Assembly (NCBI GenBank): GCA_015039465.1
Contig: MU130695.1
Span: forward strand, 574,666-638,665
DNA length: 64,000 nt
Source of the DNA: Phlegmacium glaucopus
Lineage: Eukaryota > Basidiomycota > Agaricomycetes > Agaricales > Cortinariaceae
Direction: 5' to 3'
A program made the translations under genes and the position numbers. Below are positions 1 to 51,839 of the stretch, in pieces. The notes under the pieces were generated by a model. The model was not told the DNA's origin and ran no database searches. It saw nothing but the letters and a program-made list of their open reading frames with translations. Position 1 is the stretch's first letter. Every line of letters starts with the position of its first letter.

Positions 1-538
1 ATAAAATTATATTCAATTATTCTAAACAGTCACACACAAGACTAGTAATAAAATAATAATAAAATAGTGATACATAAATATACTAGTATAATACTGGGGA
101 AGTAGGAAATAAGAAAACAAAATTGTGGGTGGTTTATATATCTTTTGGATGGCGCACAGACCATTGGTCACATGATCACAGATAAGCATGATTTCAAGCA
201 TATGGTGCTGGGTCAGGGTAGATTACATAAATTCCAAAAAAGGAAAATTTTTAAAGATGATAGAGAATTGTTTTAGGACCCTGAATATGTTTAAATTATA
301 TTAATAGCAGCTCTCCTTATGGAGAAAACTGCAAAATACTTTCCTGGACGCGGCGGTCAAAGATTTTCTAGCAAAATTCATAAATTCTAAGGGACTCCCA
401 GGGCCTCCTGATGTGATTTGGTCCAGATGGTCAATGCACCAGGATACACTAAAGGTGTCCTGAGAAAATGGGTGACACTCAAAACTTTACCTGTGCTGCT
501 CTAGGATGTCCTGAGGTGTCCTGGGGTGGTGTCCTGGG

Positions 539-8329: not shown

Positions 8330-9019
8330 TTGCAAAAACCATGCTTATGCAGATTTAAATCATATCAACGTCCAGACCTCTCGTATTACGCTATGTGGCT
8401 TGGTCAATTCAATTCAAAGCCAACTCGTTTTCATTTCCTTGCTGCAAAGCACATCCTACGATATCTTGCCGGTACCAAAGATTTAGCCCTTTTACTAGGT
8501 TCACCTTCACCGTCTATTCCGGCAACCCTTTGTGCCTATATGCAGAACGTAGGCTGCTCTGATGCTGATTGGGCTTCAGATGCTGTGGATCGGAAGAGCA
8601 TATCAGGCTATTCTTTTTATTTTGAAGGATCTCTCATCTCATGGTCCGCAGTAAAACAAAAGTCTATCGCTCTTTCTTCGACTGAGGCCGAATATTATGC
8701 GATGACACACGCATTCAAGGAGGCGTTATGGCTGAAGGTTTTTCTTGCTCTTCTCAAGTTCCTGGTCCCTCATCCGTTCCCGATACTATCCGACAATCAA
8801 GCTGCTTGTTCACTTTCAAATTCACCAGCTATATCTGCACAATCAAAACACATCAATATTCGACACCATTTCATTCGTTCTCATGTCTCTGACGGTTCTT
8901 TTACGACCACTTGGATCCCTACAAATGACATGCCTGCCGATATTTTTACCAAACCCCTTCCATTTCCTTTATTCAAATGTCATCACGAGGTTCTTGGACT
9001 GTCTAATCCTCCTAAATGA
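8330..9019 (+). pseudogene. Ty1/copia reverse transcriptase/RNase H C-terminal fragment
   Basis: About 220 residues of the copia pol C-terminus, in one frame: RPDLSYYAMWLGQF, then AAKHILRYLAGTKDLAL, DADWASDAVDRKSISGYSF (RNase H active-site region), SSTEAEYYAMTHAFKEALWL, DNQAACSLSNSP and the terminal ADIFTKPLPF. Upstream RT motifs (YVDD) are missing, so this is a 5'-truncated copy. It is followed by a polypurine tract and LTR at 9086. The frame is still intact, which suggests recent decay. Confidence 0.9.
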
Positions 9020-9085: not shown

Positions 9086-9349
9086 TGTTGACCTAGTATA
9101 AGGTCAGGTCATCTTTAGATCATGTGACACTATCATTCATTTATTACATACTCTTTTTCATTTTTACTCCTCAGTTGTCAACTACTACTTTCCGACACTG
9201 AGGCGTACATTGTCCCTTCATTACCATACAGATGTATAGCTAACTCATATCCTAGTACGCTCTCTGCGTCTAGGTAAATACAATTAGTTGTCAACTACTA
9301 CTTTCCGACACTGAGGCTACGCTCTCTGCGTCTAGATCTAATCTCATCA
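9086..9349 (+). mobile_element. LTR of the second copia copy
   Basis: The segment begins TGTTGACC after GATGGGGG and ends in CA. It carries two copies of the TTTCCGACACTGAGGC motif where the 878-1204 copy carries three. Its right end abuts an unrelated LTR-like fragment (9350-9592) with no recognisable spacer. Confidence 0.7.
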
Positions 9350-9721: not shown

Positions 9722-12700
9722 TCACATAGAGAGGTGTGATGATTTGAGTTGAGTATTGGCTTCTTTCCATGCTATAAATCCCAATTAGTACTTGTGAACA
9801 AATAAAAAGAAGTGAATTGTAAAATCCATACATCTGAGCTGATTCAATGCAATCTGTACAGCCTCTTCAGCAAGCAATGCATGATTGACATGAGAGTCTT
9901 GGGAAAGATTTTCAAGTGCAGAAATATTTTCAACTGCTTTCTTGACAGAGGTGTCACAAGTTGATTGCTGGTACATTTGGACAGCTCCTCTCAGAGGATG
10001 ATTCTCACTTGGTGACTCTTTGTGAAGAAAGAAAGACAAGTGGCCAAGAATAGCTGCAACTAATAGAAAAAAGTAAATATAAAGTGTATGGAAAAGAAGC
10101 TTGAATTAGATACATGCCAATTGCACAGTATGTAGTTTCTTTTAAGCTGAGATTGGTAGATAGGCCAGAAAGCTTGAAATTTTGAAAAATGAAATTTGTC
10201 ACTCTTTGTATTGCCAATGACAAATACTCACAATGAATGACATGATCTTGGAGATGGAATCCTGTACATTGAAATTTATGAAAACTAAATAAAAAAGGTG
10301 AGTAAAGAGATGGAAATGATGCAAAAAAAAATCACCAAATGTTATTACAGATAGTTAAAAACAATATTAATACTTACCCTCTATAAATCATGATATTCCA
10401 TAAGTGAGCAGGAAAAAGGCAGATCACAAACTGTGTGTACATACAGTCTGTTGACAAATGTATGTCATGGAGTAAATGGTATGAAAAATAACATGTTCAA
10501 CATACATGCTGCCCAAAGAATATACCAGTTGGGTTAGCAACAATGTTGATATGATAAGTGCACTTACACTCTGTCCAAATACAGTGTAAGATGAATAGAA
10601 GACAAATGATTAATAATTATAGCTTTCTTGCACATACATCCTATCATCAAAGAGAGCAGACATCAATAAAGGAAGGTGACAAAATGATAAATATTTCTCT
10701 GTGCTTGCACTTACTCTCTGCAAGAAGAGTAAATTATAGTGAAGGCAGATCAAGATGGCCTTGCACTTACAAACTGTGAAATGAGTAAGCTGGAGTCAAG
10801 GCACATCAAAATAGTCTTGCACTGACCAACTGTAAAAAGTGTAAGGTAAAGTCAAGGCAGCATGCCTTGCACTTACTTTCTGTTGAAAGAGTAAGGCTAG
10901 AGTCAAGTCAGATCAAGATGGTCTTGCACTTACCCTCTGCCAAAAGATAAAGGTAGAGTCAAGGCAGATAAAGATGGTCTTGCACTTACATACTGTCAAA
11001 AAAGTAAGCTAGAGTCAAGCTATATCAAGATGGTCTTGCACTTACACCCTGTCAAAAGAGTAAGCTAAAGTCAAGGCAGATCAAGACAGTCTTACACTTA
11101 CTTCCTGTCAAAAGTGTAAGCTAGAGTGAAGGCAGATCAAGATGGTCTTGTACTGACCAACTGTCAAGAGAGTAAGCCACTGGCAGAGTCAAGGAAGATC
11201 AAGATGGAATTTCACATACAAACTATCAAGAGTAAGGTAGACTTAAGGTAGATCAAGATAGTCTTGCACTTACTTCCTGCCAAAAGAGTAAGCCAGATTC
11301 AGGGGCCAGGGCAGATCCAAATAGAGTTGCACTTACTCCCTGTTAAAAGGGTAAGCTATAGTCAAGGCCAATCAAAATATTGCACTTACATCCTCTCAAA
11401 TGGGTGAGCTAGAGTCAAGGCAGATCAATATGGTCTTGCACTTACCAGCTGTCAAAAGAGTAAGCTAGAGACAAGACAAATCAAGATGTCCTTGCACTTA
11501 CCAACTATGGAAAGAATAAGGTAGAGGAAAGGCGGATCAACATGCCTTGCACTTACCTTCTGTTAAAAGAGTAAACTAGAGTAGATTAAAATTGTCTTGC
11601 ACTTACTTTCTGTCAAAAAGGATAAGGTAGAGCCAAGACAGATCAAGATGGTCTTGCACTTACCATCTGTCAAAAGAGTAAGGTAGAGCCAATATAGATA
11701 AAGAGGGTCTTGGACTCGCCTGCTGTCAAAAGGTAAGCCAGAGGAGCCAAGGCTGATCTTGCTTACACTTACTCTCTGTTAAAAGAGTATGTTGGCATGT
11801 CAAGGCAGATCAAGATAGCTTGCACTTACATACTGCCAAAGAAATTAAGCTAGAGTCAAGGCAGATATGGATGGTCTTGCACTTACCTCCTGTTAAAAGA
11901 GTAAGCTAGACTCAAGGTATGTCAAGATTGCCTTGTGCTTACTTTCTGTCAAAAAAGTAAGCTAGACTCAAAGCAGATTGTGATGGTCTTGCACTTACTT
12001 CCTGTTAAAAAGTAAGCTAGAGTCAAGGCAAACCAAGATAGGCCTTGCACTTACTCCCTGTTGAAAAGGTAAACTAGAGTCAAGGCAAATACAGATCATC
12101 TTGCACTTACTCTCTGCCAAAAAAAAAAAAAGTAAGCTAGAGTAAGGTAGATCAAGATGGGCTTGCACTTACTCCCTGTCAAAAGGGTAAACTAGAGTCA
12201 AGGCAGACCATGACAGTGTTGAATGCACCTCCTGTCAACAGAGTAAGCTTGGCTCAGATCAGATCAAATGGCTTTTCACTGACCTCCTGCCAAAAGAGTA
12301 AACTAGAGTCAAGGCAGATCAAGATGGTTTTGGACTCACCACCTGTCAAAAGAGTAAGCTAGACACAAGGGAGATCAAGATAGCCATGCACTTACATGCT
12401 GTCAAAGAAACAAGCTAAAGTCAAGGCAAATCAAGACAACTGCGTACTTACTCCCTGTCACAGGAGTAAGCTGGAGTCAAGGCACACTAAGATAGTCTTG
12501 CACTGACCAACTGTCAAAAGATTAAGCTAGAGCCAAGGCAGATTAAAATAGTCTCATACTTACTGCCTGTTAAGAGAGTAAGCTAAAGTCAAGGCAGATC
12601 CAGATGGTCTTGCACTTACCCACTGTAAAAAGAGTAAGTTAAAGTCAAAGCAGATCAAGATAGTCTCACACTTACAGACTGTCAAAAGGGTAAGCTAGAC

Positions 12701-15178
12701 TCAAGGCAGATCAAGATGGTCTTGTACTGACCAACTGTCAAAAGAGTAAATTAGAGTCAAGGCAGATCATGGTGGTCTTGCACTCACTTCCTGCCAAAAA
12801 AGTAAGGTAGGGCCAAGGCAGGTCAAGATGATGTTGCACTTACTCCCTATCGAAGGAGTAAGCTATATTCAGAGCAGATCAAGATGGTCTTGCACTTACT
12901 CCCTGTCACAAGAGTAAGCTAGACTCAAGGCAGGTCAAGATGGTCTCATACTGACCAACTGTCAAAAGAGTAAGCTAGAGCCAAGGCAGATCAAGATGGT
13001 CTTGCACTTACCTGCTGTTAAAAATGTAAGCTAAAGTCAAGGCAGGTCAAGATGGCCTTGCACTTACAGACTGTCAAAAGGGTCAGCTAGACTCAAGGCA
13101 GATCAAGATGGTACTGACCACCTGTCAAAAGTGTCAACTAGAGTCAAGGTAGATTAAGACAGCCTTCACTTACTCCCTGTTAAAAGAGTAAGCTAGAGTC
13201 AGGGAAGATCAAGATGGTCTTGTACTGACCAACTGTCAACAGGGTAAGCTAGACTCAAGCCAGATCAAGATACTCTTGTACTTACATGCTGTCAAAAGAA
13301 TAAGCTAGAGTCAAGGCAGATCAAGGACAGTCTTGTACTTACTCCCTATCAAATGAGTAAGCTGGAGTCAAGGCACATCAAGATAGTCTTGCACTGACAG
13401 ACTGTCAAAAGAGTAAGGTAAAGCCAAGGTAGATTAAGATGGTCCTGCACTTACATCCTGTCAAAAGAGTAAGGTAGACTTAAGGCAGGCTACAATTGTC
13501 TTGCACTTACTCTCTGTGTCAAAAAAAGAAAAGGTAAGCTAGAGCCAGAGCAGATCAAGACAGTTTTGAACTTACATACTATCAAAAGAGCAAGATAGAG
13601 TCAAGCCAGATCAAGATGGCTTTGCACTTACCTCCTATTTAAAGAGTAAGCTAGAGCCAAGACAGATCATGATGGTCTTCCACTTACATACTGTCCAAAG
13701 AGTGAGCTAGGGTCATGATAGATAAAGATGGTCTTGTACTTACATACTGTCACAAGGGTAAGCTAGAGTCAAGGCAGATCAAGATGGTTTTTCACTTACA
13801 ATCTGTCAGAGAAAAGTGAGGTAATCAGCCAGATAATATAACAATGACTCTTTTTCTACATACTTCCTGTCAAAATATATTAGTCCAGTTTCTGATCCCT
13901 AAACACCCAAGATAACACTAGACAAATGAATCAGTTGACAATGGCTTATTTTGGTCTGACCAAATACATACTACAATTTGAGGAAAAAATCCCAGCACAG
14001 TTGCCATACAATCTCCCCCATCTCTTTTATTCTTAAAAATTTTCAACAGACTGGATTCTGTCTTATTTACAACACTAGGAATCATGTTAATAGGGTAAAT
14101 TTTAAAAATGATGGTTCCCAACCTTCTAATGCCATATACAACACACAACTCAACATTGTTTTCCTGTGTTGAAAGAAAGAGCTGTTGTAATTCTTCACTA
14201 GAGAGTGCAGCTGTTGTCTTTTCAATCAAGTCTTTACAATCAGCTCCAGGCTCATGCATCTCTACAGTACATAATTAGCCAAATAGTTATTAACAAGTAT
14301 AACACTTACTTCGAAACACAACATATGCCTTGGGTGGATATTTAAACTCTTCAAACCAGTGATGAACACTCTGTTCAAAATCAGTCCAAGCTTTTTGGGG
14401 AGCTTGTTGCATTGCCTCAGCCCTACTGTTACCTTCCTTCATGAGTTGCTTGATTTTAGGAATGTCAAGAGAGTCAGTCTTGGTCCACAAGACAATCACT
14501 GGTACTTCACAGAGTCATCTTTCATGGTAAAATATTGACAAGACAATACATACCAAGCCCTGTCCCATATTCATTGAAAAACTTCTTCTCTGCTGCAGTG
14601 ATTGGCCGGTCATCACTTGTTGGAATGCAGTACCTATTTCTCTGTGAGGAAAATTGTTCTCTAAAGGCGAGTACTAACACACCAGATTGCATGAAGTTGC
14701 TCATTCACGTTTGTTGCCTCCGAACGCCCCTTAATGAATTCCTGTACCAGCTCCAACTCCCTAACACCGCCAGCTTCAAAACCACGGGAATCGTGAAAGA
14801 TAAAACCAGGATTGCTCTCAAATATCATTTGATTCTCAATGTCATGTTGTCCACGCTAAGTGTGAGGATATTAGTTGAATGTAACCCAACATTGATACAT
14901 GAACCACTTACCGTCACGGATGGATCGAGGGCCGATGACTCGATCTGGGATCACGGACATGGATGTCAATATCAGATATGAAATTTCACCATATACCTCA
15001 CTTTTTTACCATCTGGATTGAAGATCACAGGTTCTCCCGTAGTGTTGCAGAGTCTTCGCAGGATTGTCGTCTTGCCCGCGTTGGCTCGCCCGATGATGAG
15101 GATACGGAATCGAGTAAACTTTGCTTCCAGTTCCTGAATCTTCTCAGCAGTGAGTTGGGGTTTCGATGAAGTAGACAT
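9722..15178 (-). CDS. MMR_HSR1-like P-loop GTPase, copy 1, with a 62-microexon array
   Basis: The N-terminal G domain is spread over small exons. ATG 15178 opens MSTSSKPQLTAEK and the P-loop GRANAGKTT; HDIENQM and HDSRGFEAGG (G3, about 14800) follow, then YCIPTSDDRPITAAEKKFF, IVLWTKTD (G4, about 14480) and MHEPGADCKDLI (about 14257). The conserved exon ending FFPQIV stops at 13972 on a codon boundary. It is followed by the array of 3-nt exons (10262-13971), a 30-nt exon starting DSISKIM (10261-10232), an LSGLSTNLSLK exon and a tail with HLSFFLHKESP and LLAEEAVQIAL. Each splice site is read by eye. The C-terminus is the weakest part: 9722 assumes a 60-nt last intron. The family is known to me as agaricomycete 'G domain' proteins of unknown role. 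The paralogue is at 35105-40917. Confidence 0.75.
10262..13971 (-). repeat. Tandem intron / single-codon-exon array, copy 1 (62 units)
   Basis: The unit is about 56 bp (range about 50-77). On the minus strand each unit is donor GTAAGTGCAAG, an internal GATCTGCCTTGACTC segment, CTTAC, then TCTTTTGACAG, and exactly three nucleotides before the next donor. I located 62 such triplets by hand with no gap in the series. Variant donors (about nine GTCAGT, several GTATGT, two GTGAGT, one GTGCAT, one GC-type GCGAGT) still keep the 3-nt spacing. The triplets comprise 23 different codons (GGA x8, TTG x7, GAA x5, TAT x5 and others) and no stop. Introns near the low-coordinate edge (10374-10700) are longer and not repeat-like, yet also enclose single triplets. 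Confidence 0.85.
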
Positions 15179-35104: not shown

Positions 35105-38100
35105 TCAAATTACAATTTCACTATCATTCAGATTCATTCCACAAGTTACAAATACAAGCAAAGATATCCCATGATTCCATTCTGAGCTCTTCTGCCCATC
35201 AACTGCCCATATAATATTTTTTCTGTTTTTGGTTTTTGGTTCTTCACATAGAGAGGTCAGAGGTGTGATGATTTGGGTTGAGCATTGGCTTATTTTCTTG
35301 CTATAGTTCCAAATTAGCAAGTGCTTGTCAACAAATGAAAAGGAATGAATTGTAAAATCCATACATATGAGATTATTCAATGCAATTTGTACAGCCTCTT
35401 CAGCTAAAAATGCACTATTGGCATAAGGACCTTGGGAAAGATTTTCAACTGCTTCCTTGACAGAGGTGTCACAAGTTGATTGCTGGTAAAGTTGGACAGC
35501 TCTTTCCAAAGAGTCAGTTTCACTTGGGGATTCTTTGTGAAGAAAGAAAGACAAGTGGCCAAGAATAGCTGCAACTAATAGAAAAAAGTCAATATAGAGA
35601 GACTAGAGTATGAAAAAAGGTTGAATCAGATGCATACCAATTGCACAGTATATAGTTTCTTTTAAGTTGATGTTGGTAAACAGGCCAGTAAGCTTGAAAT
35701 TTTGAAAAATGAAATTTGCCATTTTTGGTATTTCCAGAGAGAAGATACTCACAATGAATGACATGATTTTGGAGATGGAATCCTGTACATTGAAAGTCAT
35801 GAAAACTGAATAAAAGAGAAAGAGTGAGTATAGAGATTAAAATGATATAAAAAAAATCACCAAATGTTATTACAGGCAGTAAAAAACAATATTAAGAGCA
35901 ACTGTAATACTTACCCTCTGTAAATAATGGTATTCCATAAGTAAGCAGAGAAAAGACAGATCACAAACTGTTTTCACATACAGTCTGTTGATAGATGTAT
36001 GTAATATAGTAAATGATAGATATAATGTCTTGAACATACATGCTGCCCAAAGAACAATGCCAATTAGGTTAGTAATAATAATAATAATATGATCTGTGCA
36101 CTTACATACTGTCCAAATAAATTGCAACATTAGTAAAAACAATGGTGATTAAATTGTAGCTCTCTTGCATACTTCCTGTCATCAGACACAAGAAAGCAGA
36201 CATCAATAAAGGTAAAGACTTCTCTGTGCTTGCACTTACTCTCTGCCAAAAGAGTAAACTAGAATCAAGACAGATCAAGATGGTCTTGCATCTACCAACT
36301 GTCAAGATAGATAGTAAGCTACAGTCAAGGCAGATCAAAATAGTCTTGCACTTACAGCCTTTCAAAAGAGTAAGCTAGACTAGTAGTAGAGTCAAGGTGG
36401 ATCAAGAAGTTCTTGCACTTACCAACTGTTAAAAGAGTAAGCCAGAGTCAAGGCAGATCAAAACAGTCTTGCACTTACCAACTATCAAAAGAGTAAGCTA
36501 GAGTCAGCAGACCAAGACAGTCTTGCACTTACAATCTGTCAAAAGTGTGAGCTAGAGTCAAGGCAGATGAAAATGGCCTGGCACTTACCAACTGCCAAAG
36601 GAGTAAGCTAAATTTAAGTAAGATCAGGATGGCCTTGTACTTACCTCCTGTTAAAAGAGTAAGCTAGAGTAAATGCAGCTCACAATGGTCTTCCACTTAC
36701 ATCCTGTCAAAAGGGTAAGATAGAGTAGAGGCAGATCAAGACAGTCTTGCACTTACACTCTGTGAAAAGAGTAAGCTAGAGTCAAGGCAGATCAAGGTCA
36801 TCTTGCACTTACATCCTGTCAAAAGAGTAAGCTGGAGTCAAAGCAGATCAAGATGGTCTTGTACTTACCAACTGTCAAAAGAGTAAGCTAGAGTGAAGGC
36901 AGTTCAAGACTGTCTTGCACTTACACCCTGTCAAAGAGGAAGCTAGGGTCCAGGAAAATCAAGATGATCTTGCACTTACAGCCTGTCAAAAAAGTAAGCT
37001 ATAGTCAAAGCATATGTATCAAGATAGTCTTGCACTTACAGCCTGGAAAGAGAGTAAGGTGTAGTCAAAGGCAGATCAAGATGGCCTTGCACTTACCAAC
37101 TGTCAAAACAGTAAGCCAAAGACAAAGCAGATCAAGAGAGCCTTGCACTTACCAACTGTCGAAGGACTAAGCTGTAGTCAAGGCAGATCAAAATGGTCTT
37201 GCACTTACTTCCTGTGAAAGGAGTAAGATAGAGTCAAGACAAATTGAAATGGTTGTGCACTTACCTCCTGTTAAAGGAGTAAGCTAAAGCCAAGGCAGAT
37301 TAAGATGGTCTTGCACTCACATCCTGTTAAAAAAGCTGAAATTGAGGCAGATCAAGATGTCTTGCACTTACTGTCTGTCAAAAGAGTAAGCTAGATTCAA
37401 AGCAAATCAAGATGGTCCTTCACTTACTCTCTGTCAAGAGAGTAAGCCAAGGTCAATGTAGATCAAGATGAACTTGCACATACTAACTGTTTAAAGAGTA
37501 AGCTAGAGTCAAAGTAGATGAAAAGGGCCTTGTACTTACCAACTGTCAAAGAAGTAAGCTAGAGTCAAGGCAAATTAAGATGGTTTTGCATTTACCTCCT
37601 GTAAAAAGGGTAAGCTAGAGTCAAGGCACATCATGGTCTTGTACTTACATCCTGTAAAAAGAGTAAGCTAGTCAAAGCAAATCAAGATGGTCCTGCACTT
37701 ACTCTCTGTCAAAATAATAAGCTAAAGTCAAGACAGATGAAGATGGTCCTGCACTTACTGCCTATCAAAAGACTAAACTAAACCCAAGGCAGATCAAGAT
37801 GGTCTTGCACTTACTCTCTGTCAAAAGATTAAGCTAGACTTGAGGCAGGTCAGTCTTGCACTTACCAACTGTCAAAGAGTAAGCTAGAGTCAAGTCAGAT
37901 CAGGATGGTCTTGCACTTACTCTCTGTCAAAAGAGTAGGCTAGAGTCCAAGCAGATCAAGATGGTCTTGCACTTACATCCTGTCAAAAGAGTAAGCAAGA
38001 ATAAAGGCAGATCAAGAATGGTATTTCAATTACTCTCTATCAGAAGCGTAAGCTAGAATCAAGACAGATGGAGATGGACTTGCACACACCTTCTGTCAAA

Positions 38101-40917
38101 ACAGTTAGCTGGGGCAGATCAAGATGGACTTGCACATACTAACTATCAGAAGAGTAAGTTAGAGTCAATTGCAGATTTAAGAGGGTCTTGGACTTACTGC
38201 CTGTCAAAGAAGTAAGCTAGAGTCAAGGCAGATCAAGATGCTCTTGCACTTACTCTCTGTCAAAATAGTAAGCTAAAGTAAAGGTAGATCAAGACAGTCT
38301 TATACTTACAATCTGTCAAAAGAGTAAGCTAGAGTCAAGGCAAATAAAAATGGTATTGCATTTACCAACTGTCAAAATAATAAGCTACAGTCAAAGCAGA
38401 TAAAGACAGTCCTATACTTACACTCTGTCAAAGGAATAAACTAGGATAAAGGCAGATTAAGATGGTCTAGCACTTACTCTCTGTCAAAGGAGTAAGCTAG
38501 AGTCAAGGCAGATCAAGATGGTCTTGCATTTACCATCTGTTAGGAGTGAGCTAGAGTCAAGGTAGATTGAGATGGCTTTGCACTTACTAACTGTCAAAGG
38601 AGTAAGTTGGGGCCAAGGCACCATGAGGATGGTCTTGCACTTACCTCCTGTCAAAGGAGTAAGCTAGAGTCAAGGACAAATTGAGTCTTGCACTTACTCT
38701 CTGCCAAAGGAGTAAGCTAGAGCTAAGACAGATCAAGATGATCTTGTGCTTACTCTCTGTCAAAAGACTAGGCTTAGGTCAAAGCAGATCAAGATGGTCT
38801 TGTGTTTACCTCCTGTCAAAAGAGTAAGCTGGAGTCAAGGCAGATCAAAATTGTCTAAGCTTGCACTTACATTCTGTTTAAAGAGTAAGCTGGGGCAGAT
38901 CAAGATAGTCTTGCACTTACCATCTGTTATGACAATAAGCTAGAGTCAAGACAGGTTAAGATGGCCTTGCACTTACTGCCTATCAAAGGAGTAAGGTAGA
39001 GTCAAGGCAGATCAAGATGGTCTTTCCCTTACTCTCTGTCAAAAGAGTAAGCTAGAGTAAAAGCAGATCAAGATGCTCTTGCACTTACTATCTGTTAAAG
39101 GAGTGAGCTAGAGTCAAGGCAGGTGAAGTTGGTCTTGCACTTACCAACTGTCAAAAGAGTAAGTAGAGTTGACACAGATCAAGATGATTGTGCACTTACA
39201 TCCTGTCAAAAGAGTAAGCTAGAGTCAAGGCACATCCAGATGTCTTTCACTTACATTCTATCACAAGAGTAAGATAGAGTCAAGGCAGATCATGATGGTC
39301 TTGCACTTACCATCTGTTATAAGAGTAAGCTAGAGTCAAGGCAAATTGGGATGGTCTTGCACTTACATCCTGTCAAAGAGTAAGCTAGAGTTAAGGTGGA
39401 ACAATGGTCTTGCACTTACATCCTGTCAAAAGAGTAAGCTAGAGTCAAGGCAGATCAAGAAACTCTTGCACTTACCAACTGTAAAAATAGTAAGCTAGCA
39501 TCAAGCAGATCAAAATGGTCCTGCACTTACAACCTATCAGAGAAAGTGAGGTAAGCAGCCATATAATATAATGAATTGTTCTTCCATACACACTGTTATA
39601 AAATATATATTAGTCCAGTTTTTGAGCACTAAATGCCTAAGACAACACTCTACACAGGTCAATCAGTTGTCAGTGGCTTATTGTAGTGTGATCAATACAT
39701 ACTACAATGTGTGGAAAATATCCCAGCACAATTGCCATATAATCTACCCCATCTCTTTTATTCTTCTTGAAATATTTCAAGAGACTGGATTCTGCCTTAT
39801 TTACACTTCTAGGTCTCATGTTAATGTGTTAAATTTAAAAGATGATGGTTGCCCACCTTTTAACTCCATATGCAACACATAACTCAACATTGTTTTTCTG
39901 TGTTGAAAGAAGGAGCTGTTGTAATTCTTCACTAGAGAGTGCAGCTGTTGTTTTTTCAATCAAGTCTTTACAATCAGCCCCAGGCTCATGCATTTCTACA
40001 TCACATAATTAACCAAATAGCTATTAATAAGTATAACACTTACTTCGAAACACAACATATGCCTTGGGTGGATATTTAAACTCTTCAAACCGCGGATGAA
40101 TACTCTGTTCAAAATCAGTCCAAGCTCTTTCGGGAGCTTGTTGCATTGACTCAGCCCTACTGTTACCTTCCTTCATGAGTTGCTTGATTTTAGCAACATC
40201 AAGAGAGTCAGTCTTAGTCCACAAGACAATCACCGGTACTTCACAAAGTCATCCCTCATGATAAGATATTGATAAGATAAGCACATACCAAGCCCTGTCC
40301 CACATTCACTGAAGAACTTCTTCTCCGCTGCAGTGATTGGCCGGTCATCGCTTGTTGGAATGCAGTACCTATTTCTCTGTGAAAAAATTGTTCTCTAAAG
40401 GCGAGTACTAACATTACCAGATTGCATGAAGTTGCTCCTTCACATTTTTTGCCCTCGAACGCTCCTTAATGAATTCCTGTACCAACTTCAACTCCTGAGC
40501 ACCGCCAGCTTCAAAACCACGGGAATCATGAAAAATAAAACCAGGGTTGCTCTCAAATATCATTTGATTCTCAATATCATGCTCTCCACGCTACAGTGTG
40601 AGGATATTAATTGGACATAGTAGCCCAATATTAATGCATGAACCACTTACCTTCATGGATGGATCAAGTGCCGACGACTCGATCTGGGATCATGGGTATG
40701 GATGTCAATATCTGGCATTAACTTTATCCATATAATTCACCTTCCTACCGTCTGGACTGAAGATCATAGGTTCTCCTGTAGCGTTGCAGAGCCTTCGCAG
40801 GATTGTGGTCTTGCCCGCGTTGGCTCGGCCGACCATGAGGATACGGAATTGAGTAAACCTTGCTTGCAGTTTCCGAATCTGCTCAGTAGTGAGTTGAGAT
40901 TTCGACGAAGTAGACAT
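35105..40917 (-). CDS. MMR_HSR1-like P-loop GTPase, copy 2, with a 66-microexon array
   Basis: Paralogue of the 9722-15178 gene with the same exon order: MSTSSKSQLTTEQ and P-loop GRANAGKTT (40917 down), HDSRGFEAGG (about 40530), YCIPTSDDRPITAAEKKFF, IVLWTKTD (about 40220), an MHEPGADCKDLI-type exon, then VNKAESSLLKYF to GYFPHIV, ending at 39703 on a codon boundary. The array follows (35783-39702), then DSISKIMSFI (35782-35753), KLTGLFTNINLKE, HLSFFLHKESP and LAEEAVQIALNN. A contiguous frame continues to a stop at 35105 (WAVDGQKSSEWNHGISL) if the last potential intron is retained. Splicing it by the copy 1 model instead gives an early stop, so the exact end is uncertain. No inactivating lesion is seen in the G domain. 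Confidence 0.75.
35783..39702 (-). repeat. Tandem intron / single-codon-exon array, copy 2 (66 units)
   Basis: Same unit as in copy 1: a ~53-nt intron plus a 3-nt exon, period about 56 bp. I counted 66 triplets by hand without a gap. They use 22 different codons: TTG x12, AGA x11, GAT x8, GAG x5, then TTA, GCT, GCA and ATG x3 each, and rarer ones. No triplet is a stop. Leu, Arg, Asp, Glu and Ala dominate. The six triplets at the low-coordinate end (AGA GAA TAT CAT ACT AGG) align with copy 1 (AGA GAT AGT CAT ACT AGG); the middle and start do not align. Confidence 0.85.
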
Positions 40918-50743: not shown

Positions 50744-51839
50744 ATGTTGGCTAAAACCTATCTCTTCATTCACATCGCCTTGATACCGCTCTATATAAGC
50801 CTCGCGATTTACCTCAATCTTCTCCCCCCAACAATCTCAGACAATCTGTCGTCACTTGCCAGACTTGCAAGAGCCAACCTCCAGTCTCAGTTTCTCAAAT
50901 CCACTCTCACTGCATTCAATAATATGACTTCTGAGTCAATCAAATTCGTTCCTCGTAAGAGTGAAGAACGCGGAAATGCTGATCATGGATGGTTAAAGAC
51001 CTTCCATACTTTTTCTTTTGCATCGTACGTTCGTCTTTTCATGTTGTTTTGAATCGCATTCTAAACCTTTCCGTATCCAGGTACCAAGAGAGCAAACATG
51101 AGCAGTTTGGGTCTTTGCGTGTCATCAATGAGGATCGTGTAGCTCCCAGTACTGGGTTTGGTACTCATTCTCATCGAGAATTTGAAATATTCTCTTACGT
51201 CGTTGCTGGAGAGCTTGAACAGTTCGTTATTACTTTTCTGCTGTATTTTATTTTTATAGACTAATCATAACTTCCTACAGCAAAGACTCCATGGGCAACA
51301 CTGAGATCCTACGACGTGGCGACCTTCAACTCACTTCCGCCGGCACTGGTATCTCTCACTCGGAAAAAGCACATGGACCCAAGCAAGTCCACTTCCTACA
51401 AATCTGGTCTCTTCCTTCCACTTCCCGGCTCCAACCCAAATACTTCACTCGTCACTTCAATGATGAGGAGAAAACCGATAAATGGGCTAGGATCGTCGCA
51501 CCTGTCGGTGCTGACGGTGTTCTTGCTGTCCGAGAGGGTGAAGGACCGGCCCCAGTACAAAGCCCCCTGACCCTTTACGCAACTCTTCTGGGACAGAACA
51601 AGTCGCTGAGCAGACCTCTCGCTGGCAAGAAGGGATACATCCATGTCGTTCAAACAAGCGGGTATAATGAGGGACAATCCAAAGGAGCTAGCATCAAGAT
51701 TGCCTCAAAAGGCGGAGAAGAGTTGACTCTGGGTGAGGGTGATGGGGCGTATATTTTTGTTGGAGATGCCGGAAACTCCTTTGAAGTTGAAAACGTTGGT
51801 GACCGTGTTGCGGAGATTCTTGTCTTTGATTTAGATTGA
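50744..51839 (+). CDS. Pirin (cupin family protein)
   Basis: The pirin body starts at the internal Met at 50924 (MTSESIKFVPRKSEERGNAD). It carries HGWLKTFHTFSFASY, GTHSHREFEIFSYVVAGELEH (metal-binding His/Glu set: HxHxxxE), RGDLQLTSAGTGISHSEKA and VHFLQIWSLPS, ending ILVFDLD at 51839. Pirins are Fe-binding bicupins linked to transcription or quercetinase activity. Two introns occur (about 51025 and 51225). From the upstream in-frame ATG at 50744 there is a 60-residue hydrophobic extension (FIHIALIPLYISLAIYLNLL) that could be a membrane anchor or targeting peptide. Confidence 0.9.

Follow-up and report, generated by a model that had tools for sequence, protein, structure and literature searches.

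The stretch of DNA analysed here (the window) comprises 64,000 nucleotides (nt) of contig MU130695.1 of the agaric Phlegmacium glaucopus (assembly GCA_015039465.1, positions 574,666 to 638,665, forward strand). It holds two GTPase genes, each carrying a long array of short introns that are predicted to separate exons of exactly one codon (Table 1). In the first gene, six exons on the minus strand between 15178 and 13972 join into 316 amino acids (aa) without a stop, the last residues of which, FFPQIV, end on a codon boundary. The joined frame contains GRANAGKTT, DSRG, and TKTD, which we take to be the G1, G3, and G4 motifs of a TRAFAC-type P-loop GTPase. The MMR_HSR1 profile matches this 316-aa part with 22.6 bits (cutoff 21.9) and is the sole profile above cutoff; nSTAND_NTPase5, with an E-value of 0.08, falls far below its own cutoff, and no WD-repeat profile matches either the 316-aa part or the C-terminus.

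An original prediction, made from the letters of the sequence, had described the segment that follows as tandem one-codon exons within a GTPase gene. Our reading confirms the layout and supports this interpretation. Between 13971 and 10262 lie 62 units in which, on the gene strand, AG is followed by exactly three bases and then by GT or GC, in phase 0 on both sides; the unit has the form TTTTGACAG-NNN-GTAAGTGCAAG. The number of introns that goes with these 62 exons had to be corrected from 62 to 63. A dynamic-programming chain of splice sites, in which exon lengths of 0-30 were left free, picks 58 exons of 3 nt in this array, and four units were added by eye (13513 AGA, 12231 GAG, 11722 CAG, and 10717 AGA). 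Two of the latter have weak or GC donors, GTGCAT at 12231 and GCGAGT at 11722. Tandem Repeats Finder (TRF) reported a 56-bp period with 55.2 copies at 10704-13799 and, for the second array, 56.6 copies at 36387-39530.

Table 1. Features of the two array-bearing GTPase genes in the window
Feature	Position	Strand	Basis
First gene, GTPase exon 1, ATG, G1 motif GRANAGKTT	15002..15178	-	joined-frame translation
First gene, GTPase exon 2	14912..14944	-	in-frame join; splice sites inferred
First gene, GTPase exon 3, G3 motif DSRG	14683..14855	-	in-frame join
First gene, GTPase exon 4	14554..14633	-	in-frame join
First gene, GTPase exon 5, G4 motif TKTD	14310..14504	-	in-frame join
First gene, GTPase exon 6, end FFPQIV, phase 0 at first array donor	13972..14261	-	in-frame join
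First array: 62 single-codon exons, 63 introns mostly ~53 nt; predicted peptide EIYYEYRDSGHLGVSQLGGELSWALGHVEEGRGEKEYRQMKKLLDGEFLEGYRKLFRDSHTR	10262..13971	-	58 chained + 4 by eye
First array, initial one-codon exon GAA	13866-13864	-	splice-chain reading
First array, run of joined codons: GAAATTTATTATGAGTATAGAGATTCTGGA...			
First array, final one-codon exon AGG	10380-10378	-	splice-chain reading
Exon DSISKIMSFI, phase 0, 3' of first array	10232..10261	-	in-frame reading
C-terminal coding part LAAILGHLSFFLHKES...IALNQLR	9827..10058, exon ends approximate	-	resembles C-terminus of deposited model P0136
Second gene, GTPase exon 1	40741..40917 (C237:615406-615582)	-	exon 1 peptide match
Second array: 66 chained 3-nt exons, peptide CVLDDMNDLIRAMNERRELMRSLIRALKRDRLRARDELLRTDEELLAAGLDSDELILLALREYHTR	35915..39592	-	TRF + splice chain
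Second gene, exon DSISKIMSFI	35753..35782	-	by eye after array; position from 3'-end search

A genome-wide family with two intron repeats

The original prediction placed the array inside one GTPase gene. The array is real, but it belongs to a family that is spread over the genome. When the 3' end of the array served as the query, at least 37 distinct places were found in the genome, the two of the window included, and the addition of C65, C145:626 kb, C11, L029, and L034 brings the loci with 53-nt-intron arrays to at least 40. At L018 and L019 only the 3' flank matched, with no array of at least 8 units and no GTPase match. In the genome, the 59-aa peptide of exon 1 is matched 80 times; identity is 64-100% for the 47 matches that rank highest by E-value, some of which cover part of the query. 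We read 23 arrays of this family (20 chained, together with L029, L030, and L034), and a GTPase match adjoins 22 of them in the window and the fetched stretches. Nearly all exons in the 20 chained arrays are 3 nt long (852/876). Of the remaining 24, ten correspond to the 30-nt exon that follows the array, and the other 14 vary in length (including five at 9 nt and two at 6 nt), some of them perhaps reflecting alternative acceptors; a counterpart of DSISKIMSFI was recovered in 10 of the 20.

At least eight further loci have the same layout built on a visibly different intron repeat of 73 nt. The GTPases concerned form a more remote subfamily; one deposited member, P0128, shares 51% identity with the query across 85% of the latter. 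Seven arrays of this 73-nt family were read (L031, L035, L037-L041), plus one interrupted copy (L036). The 73-nt introns are near identical between units at several loci, and identical copies occur on several contigs. The intron has 224 matches in the genome; about 150 are listed, all on eight contigs that also hold a GTPase match, and the listed ones lie in arrays or, in the case of C249, as a single copy beside a family gene (C164:637 kb was not checked for an adjoining GTPase). That single copy is L036, where the array is down to one 73-nt intron followed by foreign-looking sequence; because of what follows it, we treat L036 as interrupted rather than ancestral, and dropped it as a one-unit seed of an array. 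An assembly artefact is ruled out by the 30 arrays read on 21 contigs and by the two different intron repeats.

Paralogous arrays differ in what they would encode. Their bodies have no peptide in common by eye, only the last few residues being alike, and residue classes differ among 18 arrays (chi-square p 1e-8). Paralog compositions likewise differ: the L017 array is glycine-rich (22/63 codons Gly), and that of L013 is acidic/aromatic.

Splice signals and coding constraint

The splice signals and their spacing support the reading as introns. The pattern GTAAGT-N40..70-CAG-Nx-GTAAGT occurs 1081 times in the genome for x=3, compared with 9 and 7 times for x=4 and x=6; read backwards, the same patterns give 79, 11, and 11. 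The branch-like site claimed for the units was borne out: 72.7% of 856 chained introns have CTNAC at 30 to 9 nt on the 5' side of the acceptor, a share that falls to 12.1% when intron interiors are shuffled. The predicted intron length of ~53 nt agrees with a median of 53 nt in the chained arrays.

The triplets between the introns avoid stops. In the 23 arrays of the 53-nt family there is 1 stop among 1066 triplets where 80.2 would be expected from the within-array column composition, and the lowest count among 2000 column shuffles was 59; even when each codon is counted once per array, 25.0 stops would be expected among 419. The joined exons of the 20 chained arrays contain 1/852, 51/832, and 118/832 stops in frames 0, 1, and 2, respectively, and the 73-nt family has 1 stop in 135 triplets (15.6 expected). 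The reading of the array as one-codon exons is thereby strongly supported, the 3-nt spacing being kept in the second subfamily as well, and the notion that the whole array is a non-coding repeat was rejected on the stop and frame tests. C is nearly absent from the third codon base in both families (2/1066 and 2/135), as is G in the 73-nt family (1/135). The scarcity of C could stem from CpG loss at NNC followed by GT or from a splicing preference; synonymous NNT codons stay available despite it.

Codon change and intron change

Within the arrays, codons differ far more than the introns around them. Compared with the consensus, the introns of L035 differ at 2/949 sites and its codons at 15/39; the corresponding values are 15/1679 and 38/69 in L031, 8/365 and 7/15 in L038, and, as a milder contrast, 47/949 and 13/39 in L037. 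Among 57 units whose 73-nt introns are all identical, 21 different codons occur, TGA included. Under equal rates, identical introns would be expected nearly always to come with identical codons. In the 53-nt family, 162 pairs of units with identical introns have the 5' codon in common in 22% of cases (36% for the 73 pairs that lie within one array), where random pairs do so in 5.7%, and codon sharing is near random once introns differ by 4-5. Among one-base codon pairs at identical introns, 15/367 are synonymous, a share that we do not interpret as the pairs are not independent.

Neighbouring codons give little sign of stepwise change. In the 73-nt family, adjacent codons resemble each other no more than shuffled ones do (P 0.23), as if whole codons had been replaced; a stepwise point-mutation signature between neighbours is absent in this family and slight in the 53-nt family. 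Between arrays, among the 23 compared, we found 21 runs of at least four alike introns, 14 joining L025 and L028 and 7 joining L025 and L030, with 0 or 1 codon in common per run. Exon 5 of these pairs is 96.9% and 95.4% identical, respectively. Since many L025 introns are alike, the runs overlap and are no proof of orthology. No run of at least four alike introns joins L015/L016, L012/L014, or W1/L010, whose exon 5 sequences are 94-96% identical. A single run within L030 keeps 2/5 codons. In the 53-nt family TTG is over-represented before GTCAGT donors (6/14) and GGA before GTGAGT (12/25), an association which indicates that some units spread together with their codon.

Related proteins and predicted structure

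Several homologues on short contigs run unbroken through the positions of the five introns of the window gene; this, together with the short contigs and the protein length, makes them probable transcripts, which probably come from other fungi. In P0142, P0201, P0244, and P0245, the motif WFPH or WFPQ, the counterpart of FFPQIV, is followed directly by about 30-75 residues of skewed composition and then by the C-terminal domain (lengths by eye). P0147, P0168, and P0133 have similar segments after the motif and end soon afterwards. Nine short-contig proteins have at least 18 residues after the motif, among which P0183 enters an intron-like stretch and P0172 is ambiguous. The segment is more divergent than what precedes it: P0142 and P0147 are 84% identical up to WFPH and 31% in the first 60 residues beyond, and the values for P0244 and P0245 are 81% and 43%. 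These transcript-like relatives suggest that the array family is wider among mushroom-forming fungi. The Suillus models P0219, P0242, P0243, and P0246 have about 9-12 residues at the segment position, where the similar P0201, P0244, and P0245 hold about 30-43 (both by eye), and, judging from these four models, gene finders seem to miss the segment. As a separate observation, the Suillus models P0263, P0283, P0292, and P0314 have at their ends stretches or repeats that resemble VSVLILLRARPMLIEVIAHSSQ (two of them in P0283) and look like translated GT...CAG introns, possibly of a third intron family in Boletales.

One deposited P. glaucopus model includes codons of an array. P0136 contains KIEEEEKYDWEYSLREYYQV, that is, 20 of the 24 codons of L030, in order (the L030 array peptide reads KIEEEDEKYDWEYRSLREYEFYQV). 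The four codons missing from it have the donors GTAGTA, GTAACT, GCAAGT, and GTAGGT.

An AlphaFold model of P0142 has confident GTPase and helical domains, and the segment at the array position mostly has a predicted local distance difference test score (pLDDT) below 50. In a fold search, IRG, EngB, septin, and dynamin-like chains score close together: the IRG and dynamin-like chains (PDB 4lv8 and 9n2q), from GTPases whose G domain is accompanied by N- and C-terminal helical parts, have similar folds but ~10% identity and a poor (high) root-mean-square deviation, and EngB and septin chains are close over the GTPase domain alone. We know of no microexon array in IRG or dynamin-like GTPases.

The surroundings of the two genes include an open reading frame at 8330-9019 (+) that resembles, by eye, the RNase H end of a Ty1/copia-type polyprotein and adjoins the first GTPase gene downstream. 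Alike stretches at 1051-1190 (ACTTTCCGACACTGAGGC) and ~9164-9340 (TACGCTCT...GCGTCTAG) are perhaps element ends, and an open reading frame at 51291-51839 (+) looks pirin-type by eye.

Discussion

We consider it very probable that dozens of paralogous GTPase genes of P. glaucopus carry arrays of one-codon exons, the predicted splicing of which would yield a variable linker, likely a recognition surface. The layout itself, with its exact 3-nt phase-0 units, near-zero stops, two intron repeats, and unlike codons at identical introns, is established at the level of the DNA. Each short intron would be taken out by the ordinary spliceosome in an intron-defined manner, which would make an exon as short as one codon possible, and predicted splicing would string the codons into a linker between the GTPase domain and the C-terminal helical domain. 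With all units in phase 0 and exactly 3 nt in length, the reading frame is unaffected whichever of them is added, lost, exchanged, or skipped. The array would be a cassette immune to frameshifts, gaining positions through amplification of the repeat and residues through fast codon change; the joined codons would then be translated, diversity arising from unit gain and loss plus rapid codon change. The product plausibly serves self/non-self or partner recognition coupled to the GTPase switch. We propose this role because the repeats of the Podospora hnwd genes evolve in concert while their interaction codons diversify. The codons may be targeted by a mutational process or selected from ordinary mutations. 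A farther-reaching reading, which we put forward tentatively and with more doubt than confidence, is a receptor-diversification system in which identical introns form a scaffold, a codon-aimed process rewrites or replaces the 3-nt exons as the introns are copied unchanged, and splicing joins the codons into a hypervariable recognition peptide on the GTPase, perhaps with combinatorial skipping of exons in addition.

A number of observations weigh against this interpretation. The frame control is weak in the 73-nt family, where frames 1 and 2 have 0/128 and 16/128 stops and frame 1 thus offers no contrast. Two arrays contain one stop each, a TAG in L028 and a TGA in L039; exon 1 of L028 is split between frames and looks frame-shifted. 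The 9-unit array L011 has no GTPase match within the 10 kb fetched. The pairwise codon/intron ratio is just 6 in L037 and 10 in L040, neighbouring codons of the 53-nt family show a slight excess of likeness over shuffled ones (84/832 identical, 56.5 when shuffled), a block duplication in L012 retained 4/6 codons at 8/261 differences in the introns, and in runs within L017 22/35 codons, mostly GGA, are preserved. Among the gene models, P0122 (deposited) reads into the first array intron and P0124 (from a short contig) into an intron. P0136 is chimaeric, skipping exons 5-6 of L030 and continuing in the L029 gene, and its second half joins FPQIV straight to DSISKIM; it also retains one codon that has the same GTAGGT donor as an omitted one. 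Being chimaeric, it may be an ab initio model, and together with that codon this makes it weak evidence. The recognition role, finally, is drawn by analogy.

Among the rival explanations, the one that fares best, although we think it unlikely, has combinatorial alternative splicing as the main purpose of the arrays, the subset of codons varying from transcript to transcript and giving very many isoforms. Every subset of phase-0, 3-nt exons is indeed in frame, donor strength is variable, the four codons that P0136 omits have non-standard donors, and database proteins include intron-reading (P0124) and array-skipped (P0136) forms. However, P0136 may be ab initio, as noted, and germline differences between paralogous arrays already yield great diversity.

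Somewhat less likely still is that gene conversion homogenises the introns while purifying selection holds old codons in place. The identical 73-nt introns on several contigs fit such a process. The homogeneity, however, extends up to the codon edges, where short conversion tracts would be weakest (a point confounded by splice-site constraint), and the codons are not kept: the L025/L028 and L025/L030 runs agree at 0 or 1 position in spite of their highly similar exon 5 sequences. Moreover, the introns of the 53-nt family are diverse, yet their codons are near random at 4-5 differences.

Introner-like insertion, in which one intron was copied between pre-existing codons, old codons thus being separated by young introns, appears improbable. 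Introner-like elements are known in fungi (PMC4457414), and units with different codons at 100% identical introns look as if the intron alone had been copied. The process would, however, require a phase-0 insertion between each pair of codons, and this in dozens of genes. Of the 224 matches of the 73-nt intron, the roughly 150 listed are confined to arrays or the C249 single copy. Nor does it fit the lack of a common peptide in paralogous array bodies or the avoidance of C (both families) and G (73-nt family) in the third base, which is not expected of ordinary coding sequence. Least of all do we credit a minisatellite within one long, or recursively spliced, intron that is lost in its entirety from the transcript, its splice-like motifs being a by-product of the repeat: tandem repeats within introns are common and P0136 joins FPQIV to DSISKIM, but nothing in a non-coding repeat would disfavour stops in one particular frame (1/852 versus 51/832 and 118/832) or hold splice sites exactly 3 nt apart in two unlike repeats. 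Long segments are also present at the array position of related transcript-like proteins.

If the arrays are spliced as predicted, they would present single-codon exons in bulk, dozens in succession, and would be a test of how far exon and intron definition can go. They would also constitute a generator of diversity whose frame survives both recombination at unit boundaries and exon skipping and, should codons be rewritten as in the farther-reaching reading, an antigen-receptor-like generator at single-residue resolution. The contrast between codons and introns makes targeted or selected codon diversification directly testable. As gene finders apparently leave the segment out, a class of hypervariable fungal proteins may be unannotated.

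Comparison with known systems

Tandem single-codon exons were absent from the matches listed in the open-access PMC literature, subscription papers and preprints being outside the scope of that search. Exons of 3 nt are on record in homothorax (PMC7392893) and in lipS of Dactylellina (PMC5639578); the cited passages describe one or two per gene, whereas the arrays have dozens in tandem. Introner-like elements, as outlined in PMC4457414, resemble the array introns in being multiplied, alike spliceosomal introns. They differ in that they insert in various genes, whereas the array introns, among the matches listed, lie head-to-tail at one position of one gene family.

The micro-exon genes of schistosomes have very short exons (3-81 bp) in series and encode highly variable proteins (PMC10526429). 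The arrays are likewise a series of few-codon exons, with 852 of the 876 chained ones being 3 nt long. In the schistosome genes, as the same abstract summarises them, exon sizes vary, introns reach 5 kb, and the products are secreted; the arrays, in contrast, have uniform 3-nt exons and a median intron of 53 nt. That abstract makes no mention of tandem identical introns with single hypervariable codons.

A parallel in evolutionary behaviour is offered by the hnwd genes (het-d/e/r) of Podospora, a multigene family of WD-repeat allorecognition genes with unstable repeat number, in which concerted evolution homogenises the repeats both inside a paralog and across paralogs, and a few codons per repeat are under diversifying selection (PMC1805685, PMC2873952). 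Both systems combine alike repeats with hypervariable codons in a fungal multigene family, although in the arrays it is hypervariability, not selection, that was measured. Fungal allorecognition genes of the hnwd/NLR type encode a STAND NTPase with WD repeats, whereas MMR_HSR1 alone passes its cutoff in the window GTPase. As these accounts describe it, the hnwd repeat is itself coding (WD40); in the arrays, the repeat is the intron, and the variable part is a whole one-codon exon.

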